Assembly (NCBI RefSeq): GCF_023923225.1
Contig: NZ_CP099489.1
Location: 3,100,001-3,164,000 of the forward strand
DNA: 64,000 bases
Origin: Ornithinimicrobium faecis
Lineage (GTDB): Bacteria > Actinomycetota > Actinomycetes > Actinomycetales > Dermatophilaceae
Direction of reading: 5' to 3'
The notes below the pieces were generated by a model, which saw only the letters and a list, made by a program, of their open reading frames with translations, was not told where the DNA came from and did no database searches. The position numbers and the translations under genes were made by a program. This document shows positions 6,386 through 8,373 of this stretch, piece after piece. How positions within the stretch are numbered: position 1 is the first letter of the stretch; each line of letters opens with the position of its first letter.

Positions 6386-7830
6386 CTGGTCACCTCCCCG
6401 TCAGGCGACCACTCGGCATACAGATCGCTGACCAGGGGGTCGTCGTGGTCGTGGGCATCGCCCACGACGGACCGCACGTCGTCCTCGATGACCGTCGGCC
6501 ACCACCGTCGGGTGGCGAGGGCCTCCGCCAGCGCCTCAACGACAGCCGCATCCAGGTGGGTGCCGGTCCTGGCCCGCAGCACCTCCAGCGCCTTGTCCTG
6601 ATCAAGTGCCGCGCGATAGGACCGGGTCGTGGTGAGGGAGTCGAAGGCGTCAGCTGCCGCGATCACCCGGGCGAACAACGGGATGTCCTCCCCCGACAGG
6701 CCGGTCGGGTAGCCGCGACCATCCATCCGCTCGTGGTGGTGCAAGACCCCGAGCATGGCACCGCCCAGGAAGTCGATGCCCTCCAGCATGCGCACGCCGG
6801 CCTCGGGGTGGGTGGTGATCGTGACCAGGTAGTCGACGTCGACGGGGCCGCTGGCGCGCGGGACGCGAGGAGCAGCAGCGATCAGACCGATGTCGTGCAG
6901 CAGCGCGGCGTAGTGCAGGGCCTCGCTGCCTACAGTGTCGATGCCGACCCTGGGTGCGATGCGGTCGCAGAGCTCGGCCACGCGCGCGCTGTGGCCGGCA
7001 GAGTAGGGGTTGGCCTCCTCCAGCGCTGCCACGATGGTGCGGACGGTGCGCAGGTGCGAGCGCCGCTCCACGGCGTCGCGACTGAGCGTCCATTGCGCGA
7101 TAAACATGGGCCCCAGGATGAGCACGGCGCTGAAGGTCCCGACCCCCACCGGGGCCCAGAGCACGACGAACAGGAAAGCGATCAGGGCATGGGTCAGATA
7201 GCCGCCCCCGACCCGACGCAGCGTCCGGAGCGCGACGTCCCAGACCCGGGCCCCACTAACAGCACGGGCCATCCCGCCGATGAGCAGACAGTTGAGGAGC
7301 GTCATCACGACGTAGCCGACGACGAGCGGGACCGCAACGCGCAACAACAGGTCGAGTGGCGATAGGTCTCGATTGTCGTCGGGTGAGACGCCTCCCGCGA
7401 AGATATACACGAGGCCGCCCACCCCACCGACGACCCCCGTCATGCCGGCGTTGAAGAGTCTGGTCCGCAGCCGCTGCGAGCGCACGCTGCCCAGGTAGGA
7501 CAGGAAACCGACGATGACGGCACCGGTCGGGCCCGCCAGGGGCAGCGCCGCGGCCAGGATCACGGTGGCGACCGAGACGCCGAGGTGGGGGCCGAGGTCA
7601 CGCTCGCGCAGGGACGAGCCCAGGATGCCCAGGCCGGTCAGGACCGCGACAACGACGCCGGACGGGGGGCGACCCACCTGCAGGGCCACCAGCCCCAGAG
7701 CCAGGGCCAGCAGGCACACCGCCGTGACATAGCCCGCCACAGCGACGCTCGTCTGGTCGGCAGGATGCGTGGGCCGAGACTGCACCCGGGCAGACTGAAG
7801 CGGCGCCGACACCTGATATTTGTCAGGCAT
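6382..7830 (-). CDS. membrane-anchored HD-GYP domain protein (putative cyclic-di-GMP phosphodiesterase)
   Basis: A 482-residue protein. Roughly residues 30-260 are polytopic membrane segments, and the C-terminal 220 residues form an HD-GYP domain: GHSARVAELC, YAALLHDIGLI, ITTHPEAGVRML, HHHERMDGRGYPTGLSGEDI and ARVIAAADAFDSLTT. Most metal ligands and a GYP motif are present, so phosphodiesterase activity is plausible, although the usual Lys after HDIG is Leu. The ATG start lies 38 bases after a 25-codon ORF on the same strand. It is coupled to the second HD-domain gene downstream. Substrate and sensed signal are unknown. Confidence 0.8.
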   Translation of the reverse strand: MPDKYQVSAPLQSARVQSRPTHPADQTSVAVAGYVTAVCLLALALGLVALQVGRPPSGVVVAVLTGLGILGSSLRERDLGPHLGVSVATVILAAALPLAGPTGAVIVGFLSYLGSVRSQRLRTRLFNAGMTGVVGGVGGLVYIFAGGVSPDDNRDLSPLDLLLRVAVPLVVGYVVMTLLNCLLIGGMARAVSGARVWDVALRTLRRVGGGYLTHALIAFLFVVLWAPVGVGTFSAVLILGPMFIAQWTLSRDAVERRSHLRTVRTIVAALEEANPYSAGHSARVAELCDRIAPRVGIDTVGSEALHYAALLHDIGLIAAAPRVPRASGPVDVDYLVTITTHPEAGVRMLEGIDFLGGAMLGVLHHHERMDGRGYPTGLSGEDIPLFARVIAAADAFDSLTTTRSYRAALDQDKALEVLRARTGTHLDAAVVEALAEALATRRWWPTVIEDDVRSVVGDAHDHDDPLVSDLYAEWSPDGEVTR

Positions 7831-7868
7831 CGACGCCGCTCAGAAACTCAGTCAACCAGGGGGACCGT

Positions 7869-7946
7869 TCAGTCCTCCCAGCTAATGATGTCGGTGAATC
7901 CACCGCCACCAAAGCCATTCAGCATGTTCATCAGTGCTGCGATCAT
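7869..7946 (-). CDS. 25-residue peptide upstream of the HD-GYP genes
   Basis: An ATG is preceded at 8 bases by a strong GGAAGGA ribosome-binding site and opens a 25-codon frame. The peptide starts MIAALMNML, has a Gly-rich core GFGGGGF and ends DIISWED. It is hydrophobic/amphipathic at the N-terminus and acidic at the end. It is 38 bases upstream of the HD-GYP gene in the same direction, so it is probably in the same transcript. No known family is recognised. It could be a signalling or regulatory peptide, or a translated leader that couples expression. Coding status rests on the ribosome-binding site and context. Confidence 0.55.
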   Translation of the reverse strand: MIAALMNMLNGFGGGGFTDIISWED

Positions 7947-8054
7947 CGTCTCAGTCCTTCCCGGGGCCGATACTTTGGTTGTCCTTGCACGTCGCCCCTC
8001 CTGCGCGGGCGGCATGCGCAAACATGGTCATAGGGTGTCACATCTTGCGAGGAG

Positions 8055-8083
8055 TTGACATGCCCATGGCGCAATTCTAAGCA
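8055..8083 (+). promoter_or_regulatory. weak candidate promoter upstream of bL37
   Basis: A perfect TTGACA (8055-8060) is followed after 17 bases by TAAGCA, a poor -10. If real, it would give a 5' leader of about 210 bases before the bL37 gene. The rest of 7947-8298 holds no gene that can be supported. Confidence 0.25.
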
Positions 8084-8298
8084 TTCTTTGCCGAATCCTT
8101 ACCATTCGGACGCTCTTCTGCGGAGTTTGTGCGTGGACCACGCACGGTTGGCTCGCAGAACCCTCCCGGCACTGGGGTCTCGACCGCCAGAGTCTGTGCC
8201 AGAATGGGCAGCCGGACCGGTGGATCACCAGCGCCCCACCACGCGCCCCGCGTGGGGGCTCGCCGGCCACCGCAGTGCCCCAACCGTGAGGAGATGCC

Positions 8299-8373
8299 AT
8301 GAGCAAGCGTGCCCGCAAGCGCCGTGACCGCAAGAAGAAGGCCGCCAACCACGGCCGCAAGCCCAACGCCTGA
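8299..8373 (+). CDS. 50S ribosomal protein bL37
   Basis: A 24-residue, very basic protein starting MSKRARKRRDRKKK and ending AANHGRKPNA. Length and the ANHGxxPN ending match bL37, the small actinobacterial large-subunit protein first described from mycobacterial ribosome structures. A GAGGAG ribosome-binding site lies just upstream of the ATG, and a strong terminator follows about 40 bases after the stop. It stands alone on the plus strand, converging with sigR-rsrA. Confidence 0.85.
   Translation: MSKRARKRRDRKKKAANHGRKPNA

Follow-up and report, generated by a model that had tools for sequence, protein, structure and literature searches.

A 25-codon gene in front of two membrane HD-domain genes in Ornithinimicrobium faecis may encode a peptide signal for its neighbor

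We analyzed a 64,000-nucleotide (nt) stretch of the genome of Ornithinimicrobium faecis (contig NZ_CP099489.1, positions 3,100,001 to 3,164,000; "the window"), which is assembled as one contig of 4.62 Mb and is 99.9% complete, and focused on a 25-codon open reading frame (ORF) lying directly in front of two genes for membrane HD-domain proteins, here called HD-GYP1 and HD-GYP2. On balance, we lean toward the reading that this small gene, encoded together with that of its receptor, specifies a short signal peptide or a precursor of one, and that HD-GYP1 senses the resulting oligopeptide. Somewhat more tentatively, we propose that the locus belongs to a widespread peptide-signaling system of Actinomycetota, Firmicutes, and Atribacterota, in which tiny precursors, some of them tandem-tailed, accompany receptors that combine an S-component-like membrane domain with an HD-GYP domain, and in which the HD domain has taken on another output in lineages that lack cyclic di-GMP (c-di-GMP).

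The initial annotation of the window had pointed out the ORF, a GGAAGGA site in front of it, and a gap of 38 nt between the peptide stop and two coupled HD genes, and the coordinates bear this out. The elements of the locus are as follows.

7946-7869, minus strand: 25-codon peptide ORF, MIAALMNMLNGFGGGGFTDIISWED plus stop; translated in silico, conserved in the genus, and under purifying selection in close pairs
7961-7955, minus strand: Shine-Dalgarno (SD) sequence GGAAGGA, 8 nt 5' of the peptide ATG
7830-6382, minus strand: HD-GYP1, the proposed receptor, with a membrane domain (residues ~54-232) and an HD-GYP domain, from Pfam and a structure model
6385-5060, minus strand: HD-GYP2, a degenerate HD domain with no HHE or GYP motif
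7843-7795, minus strand: very stable predicted hairpin (-36.9 kcal/mol, z -9.7) whose stem includes the start codon of HD-GYP1
8081-8102, minus strand: conserved upstream element GTAAGGATTCGGCAAAGAATGC (GTAAAGATTCGTTAAAGAAT-type), ~135 nt 5' of the peptide start, in the window and five close relatives

HD-GYP1 starts at position 7830, and its end overlaps the start of HD-GYP2 by 4 nt. A GG(G/A)AAGGACTGA block at the SD site is kept in the window and the five close relatives. The element at 8081-8102 is possibly an operator or part of a promoter; a consensus promoter scan of window positions 7600-8320 gave no match.

The peptide gene is conserved at a fixed place throughout the genus. A search for HD-GYP1 homologues across 58 genomes, that of O. 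faecis included, gave a match in 44. A profile hidden Markov model built from 23 genus peptides gave a single significant match, with E values from 2e-13 to 2e-5, in 29 of the 31 Ornithinimicrobium genomes, and every match lies directly 5' of HD-GYP1. Completeness is 75% and 84% in the two genomes without a match; in one of these, G005, the contig apparently stops before HD-GYP1. Among the 155 other genomes of the family (186 in total), the best profile match had an E value of 0.016. Every one of the 27 genus HD-GYP1 loci that we examined carries an ORF of 24 to 31 residues with a good SD site directly 5' of the receptor gene. These peptides mostly follow the pattern M(L/F/I)xxL...ID(V/I)(V/I)SWED, with one subclade terminating in WNG; the Trp is invariant in all 26 aligned peptides, the middle is variable, and the C-terminus is more conserved than the middle. 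The initial annotation had named loss of the frame in such relatives as the outcome that would tell against it, and we found instead that frame and peptide are kept in relatives within the genus that retain the HD-GYP pair. The HD-GYP1 match is split across two frames in three genomes (G003, G004, and G009; loci L037, L036, and L040), where the peptide ORF is uninterrupted. The peptide alignment and the comparisons of peptide and receptor divergence exclude L036.

The comparison of synonymous (pS) and nonsynonymous (pN) differences that had also been proposed gave a divided answer. In five close pairs, which we chose as independent, pS was 0.18 and pN 0.041, with 7, 3, and 20 differences at codon positions 1, 2, and 3, and the peptide is under purifying selection in these pairs. 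Over the 22 pairs whose peptides are at least 60% identical, pS was 0.21 and pN 0.12, with 107, 43, and 94 differences at the three positions, and because pN exceeded pS in 7 of the 22 pairs, divergence between subclades is less constrained. We also applied an automatic criterion (an SD site, 20 to 80 amino acids, and a Trp within the last six residues), which picked out 25 of the 27 genus upstream regions, compared with 2 of 27 antisense regions and 8.9% of dinucleotide shuffles.

Peptides of the same design stand at the same place in many other bacteria. Outside the genus, peptides were picked by hand from ORF lists or three-frame translations once the pattern was known, so the rates from the automatic criterion are the less biased measure: it selected 14 of the 22 remaining order-level loci (shuffle rate 0.091, 2 antisense), 22 of the 30 from Firmicutes (0.137, 2 antisense), and 9 of 12 elsewhere (0.117, none antisense). 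Read by hand, all 22 other order-level loci (L032, L034, L035, and L081-L099) have a short ORF with a Trp in its C-terminal part, preceded by an SD-like site in 19; the site is not clear in L091, L093, and L099, for which starts were set by eye. The L034 peptide is MSKIVSAVEKFLSAQPHWTWEG. Several of these products resemble secreted precursors: L094 encodes a Sec-type precursor, MRTLRILASAIALAALASVGASAAQAEAAPSRPIIQLDGWQW, and Sec-type precursors in other lineages terminate in GWQW or DWTW. Others repeat their tails. The L093 precursor opens like a signal peptide and continues with six NIDWA units at an exact nine-residue period, L099 has one YDWA and three SWDWA, and L084 has two copies of RGWDWKG. 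Of the loci read besides these 22, L042 has four copies of SVLTWRP, the L039 tail is NIGWSPT, and L041 is doubtful. Database homologues of the Phycicoccus-type precursor contain between one and three GW(D/G/T)Wx(G/T) units; four of the five are labeled hypothetical protein by their source, and the fifth has no name.

Farther afield, all eight loci from Nonomuraea, Planotetraspora, Streptosporangium, and [Actinomadura] parvosata have the peptide, with tails such as GVSWT, GVSWI, and GISWT, and it also occurs in Sporichthya and in a Thermosediminibacterales metagenome-assembled genome (MAG). An Atribacteria MAG encodes ...LLLAGGARFRW, two Actinomycetota MAGs have two and three tandem gene copies for ...ILGSL(V/I)GIC(A/S)TVRW, and an uncultured actinobacterium (L124) has ...GGESGWKWS; no such peptide was seen at L119 or L123. 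From a sample of 149 Firmicutes genomes we examined the best 30 loci closely, and all 30 have an ORF of 23 to 29 residues of the form ~MxxLxKxLxALxxLVLAGGA plus a tail. The LAGGA stretch is signal-peptide-like, and the tails are 4 to 8 residues long, often xFxW and sometimes without Trp. A phylum sample of 296 genomes added 27 loci, in which a LAGGA-type or near-LAGGA peptide was found at 12 of 12 loci from assorted lineages and 8 of 10 from the family designated f41 (tails finishing in GRLG or SRMG), and at none of 5 Streptomyces-like loci (four also read in three frames, L234 by scan only). In the 15 Streptomycetaceae loci that we scanned, the 400 nt closest to the HD frame likewise contain no such peptide. 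The automatic rule picked out ORFs with a Trp tail in several of them, each over 400 nt ahead of the point where the HD frame opens, and no two are alike. Loci from genomes already counted (L078-L080, L107, and L108) and L192, which is the L184 locus, are duplicates, and L205/L207/L208, L210/L212, and L211/L213/L219 are near duplicates.

Profile comparison detected no homology between the Ornithinimicrobium and Firmicutes peptides; what they share is place, size class, and design. Known peptide families were set aside, since none of 10 representative peptides matched Pfam or NCBIfam over cut-off (best E 0.026).

The proposed receptor combines a predicted sensor with a recognizable HD-GYP domain. 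HD-GYP1 matches Pfam HD_5 (E 2.8e-35), contains HDIGL and HHERMDGRGYP, and is modeled with an HD-GYP phosphodiesterase fold in its catalytic domain, and its residues ~54-232 are predicted to adopt the fold of an energy-coupling factor (ECF) S component, at 9 to 16% identity to S components. Searched against Pfam, this N-terminal domain gave no match to MASE9 (PF20972) up to E 0.001, and only HD families were returned for the protein; PF20972 is matched by the homologous loci L141 and L184 and by the genome of L117. Peptide divergence tracks the HD-GYP1 membrane domain and not the HD domain. The GYP motif is absent from 10 of 27 HD-GYP1 sequences checked; among these are the NIDWA type and the majority of Sec-type clades, although L091 and L092, which are also Sec-type, retain it. 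The link to a peptide thus persists where the usual catalytic motif is gone. MASE9 as a peptide-linked unit in general is not supported: three of three MASE9 proteins whose output is GAF-GGDEF or GAF, their domains judged by eye, have no upstream peptide, with L263 giving only ~360 nt of upstream sequence.

At L141 and L184 the gene after the HD-GYP gene encodes DUF5317, a candidate peptide-processing enzyme whose model (predicted local distance difference test score 83.7) had no match in a PDB search at E 0.001. By eye, the HD-GYP frame of L264 continues into a DUF5317-like stretch, and this continuous frame suggests that DUF5317 and this type of HD-GYP cooperate.

What HD-GYP1 puts out in O. 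faecis is probably not c-di-GMP hydrolysis. The genome has six HD-family matches, but no GGDEF domain exceeds the cut-off (best E 0.245) and no EAL domain was found at E 0.01, and a c-di-GMP output was set aside for this species. Across the family, GGDEF domains are found at E 1e-8 in 45 of 184 genomes, and the sole positive in the genus is G005, which is fragmented and 84% complete. In addition, the Lys of the HDxGK motif is Leu in HD-GYP1, and it is Leu or Met in all seven Ornithinimicrobium HD-GYP1 sequences checked. The HD-GYP output named in the initial annotation is not supported in its usual c-di-GMP sense, and of the tandem HD-GYP operon that it described, the coupled membrane genes stand and the second gene proves to be degenerate. 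Action on another nucleotide or a protein-protein switch is more likely; a diadenylate cyclase domain, for cyclic di-AMP, is present.

Predicted RNA structures accompany the peptide gene. In five relatives of the window clade, the predicted hairpin has a z score of -5.1 to -10.4 and contains the HD-GYP1 start codon; in some other species of the genus it precedes that start, whose position there is approximate. For L022 and L026, the stretches taken for the z calculation did not include the hairpin, and z came out close to 0. Within the 80 nt 3' of the peptide stop, the predicted hairpin beats 20 of 20 shuffles in 24 of the 27 genus loci (not L013, L014, or L016), compared with 4 of 27 for a control stretch 5' of the peptide. 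A 150-nt search 3' of the peptide gave 21 of 27, with L009, L013, L014, L015, L016, and L036 unremarkable. In Firmicutes, 21 of 30 loci have a Watson-Crick helix of 9 to 17 base pairs (bp) around the peptide ORF, against a null of 2.7%, in a search restricted to Watson-Crick pairs and to fixed windows chosen after a looser search had been seen. The 5' arm lies 87 to 156 nt before the peptide start and the 3' arm 5 to 31 nt past the stop, with sequences that differ by species. That looser search, with G-U pairs and wide windows, separated weakly (mean 12.8 versus 9.7 in shuffles) and used the wrong ORF for L196. Elsewhere the enclosing helix was found in two of four f41 loci and none of 27 Ornithinimicrobium loci. 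RNAalifold predicted no pairs on a MAFFT alignment of 22 Firmicutes leaders, in which the helix arms are unaligned. In the Firmicutes loci L192-L221, the region from ~156 nt before to 45 nt past the peptide ORF reads as a structured RNA, with AGCGGAGCGG and TAGCGG motifs inside many. An Rfam scan of the window and 15 loci (138 kb, including 9 of the 30 Firmicutes loci) returned only tRNA in the window and a raiA RNA (RF03072) at L141 944-1150, near the Atribacteria peptide/HD-GYP locus. The predicted structures could serve to raise peptide over receptor, and they also fit a leader-peptide mechanism.

From this arrangement we infer translation, export, processing, and binding of the peptide, a set ratio of its expression to that of the receptor, an output, and switching. 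The active piece would be the C-terminal part around the invariant Trp (DIISWED in the window), which would most likely arrive at the outer face of the membrane and bind the ECF S-component-like domain of HD-GYP1. That membrane domain would relay the signal to the HD domain in the cytoplasm and to the degenerate partner HD-GYP2, while the stable hairpin 3' of the peptide gene may hold the receptor low relative to the peptide. By analogy, the tail-repeat precursors of relatives are the strongest argument that several copies of a tail are released. As to the peptide-signaling module suggested in the initial annotation, the Sec-type and multicopy precursors at the same place and the codivergence with the sensor domain support it, and c-di-GMP output is not supported; the self-inhibition module that it raised as well is possible. 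Weighing against secretion of this particular member is, above all, that Ornithinimicrobium peptides have no signal peptide; the four for which we computed properties have a hydrophobic or amphipathic N-terminal half and no basic start.

These same properties would suit a nonsecreted, membrane-associated small subunit or inhibitor retained by the cell that makes it and packed against the HD-GYP1 membrane domain, with which the peptide does codiverge. We regard this as unlikely, since the tail repeats and cleavable-looking signal peptides of relatives indicate that tails are released. Slightly less likely again is a cis-acting leader peptide without any role in trans, whose translation, or stalling near the conserved C-terminus, would control the HD-GYP1 hairpin. 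A predicted cis RNA structure does lie between the putative leader ORF and HD-GYP1 in most genus loci, with the start codon inside it in the window clade, and this also speaks against a peptide signal; helices of at least 9 bp enclosing the Firmicutes ORFs and the greater conservation of the C-terminus over the middle point the same way. However, Sec-like signal peptides and two- to sixfold tail repeats in relatives are not expected of a leader, peptide divergence tracks the sensor domain, and the window hairpin begins ~25 nt past the peptide stop.

It is very improbable that the product is a secreted peptide with another job, surfactant-like or antimicrobial, merely controlled together with the HD genes. 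The peptides of some species are short, partly amphipathic, and acidic, but there is one significant copy per genome, tightly linked to HD-GYP1 in the genus, the peptide is absent at three of three loci with other MASE9 outputs, and the Firmicutes tails of 4 to 8 residues are small for such a role. That the ORF is open by chance within a 5' untranslated region is scarcely credible: the ORF is short and SD-like stretches are common, yet this explanation was rejected on the genus-wide profile matches, the ORF at 27 of 27 loci, the selection seen in pS and pN, and the low shuffle and antisense rates.

Divergently oriented from the peptide gene, a strongly basic 24-residue ORF, MSKRARKRRDRKKKAANHGRKPNA, lies at window positions 8299-8373 on the plus strand, with zinc-finger anti-sigma and sigma genes nearby. 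Its peptide had no match in a Pfam search; we take it to be, perhaps, a short bS22/AURKAIP1-like ribosomal peptide.

The ligands of many membrane-embedded bacterial sensor domains remain to be found, and peptide genes such as these are short enough for gene finders to overlook. If our reading is correct, the input of a multiphylum HD-GYP receptor class becomes testable with short synthetic peptides, a peptide-to-HD-GYP route is added to peptide signaling, and the occurrence of HD-GYP proteins in genomes without c-di-GMP makers is easier to explain.

Several known systems share parts of this design. The yeast alpha-factor precursor repeats its peptide, and the tail-repeat precursors described here resemble it. 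In the streptococcal Rgg/SHP and ComR/ComS systems, a tiny gene adjoins that of its receptor and the active C-terminal tail has aromatic or acidic residues, much as the window peptide gene adjoins that of the proposed receptor and has the proposed active tail DIISWED; however, RRNPP/Rgg receptors are cytoplasmic transcription regulators with tetratricopeptide repeat and helix-turn-helix domains, whereas the genes downstream here encode membrane HD proteins. The agr system (AgrD/AgrB/AgrC) pairs a short peptide precursor with a polytopic receptor in the membrane, as the window locus places a short peptide gene beside that of a polytopic membrane protein, but HD-GYP1 is not a histidine kinase, and the window peptide lacks Cys and had no match to AgrD-type families in Pfam or NCBIfam at E 1. 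The predicted fold of the HD-GYP1 membrane domain is like that of the ECF S components TmRibU, FolT, BioY, and ThiT, although here it is fused to HD-GYP.

Closer in architecture are the MASE9-type HD-GYP proteins (PF20972 plus PF13487) of Firmicutes and Atribacterota, which have a homologous membrane domain, an HD-GYP domain, and a peptide directly upstream (in Firmicutes, at all of the best 30 loci). They differ in the LAGGA stretch and short tail of that peptide, in the helix-closed leader of most Firmicutes loci, and, at L141 and L184, in having DUF5317 rather than a second HD-GYP as the next gene. Streptomyces HdgA and HdgB are described, in the passages devoted to them, as membrane-bound proteins with six transmembrane segments, the first with an HD-GYP and the second with a degenerate HD-GYP domain, very likely forming one operon (PMC6205966), and HdgB as lacking GYP (PMC13232838). 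The window pair is similar to what those passages portray, with overlapping genes for an active-type and a degenerate membrane HD-GYP. Mutants in hdgA or hdgB are reported there to have no developmental phenotype, with the activating signals said to be likely missing (PMC6205966), and the passages on HdgA/HdgB in the two articles describe no peptide (PMC6205966, PMC13232838). Two differences are that the 15 Streptomycetaceae and 5 Streptomyces-like loci have no such peptide near the HD gene and that S. venezuelae has GGDEF proteins, whereas none exceeds the cut-off in the window genome. In the open-licence literature, we found no paper on MASE9, DUF5317, or HD-GYP with an ECF S component, and titles and the starts of abstracts offered nothing on point for HD-GYP together with a pheromone or autoinducing peptide. 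Peptide signaling is a known kind of system, and what is new here is the proposed receptor class, which the open-licence literature that we searched had not linked to peptides.
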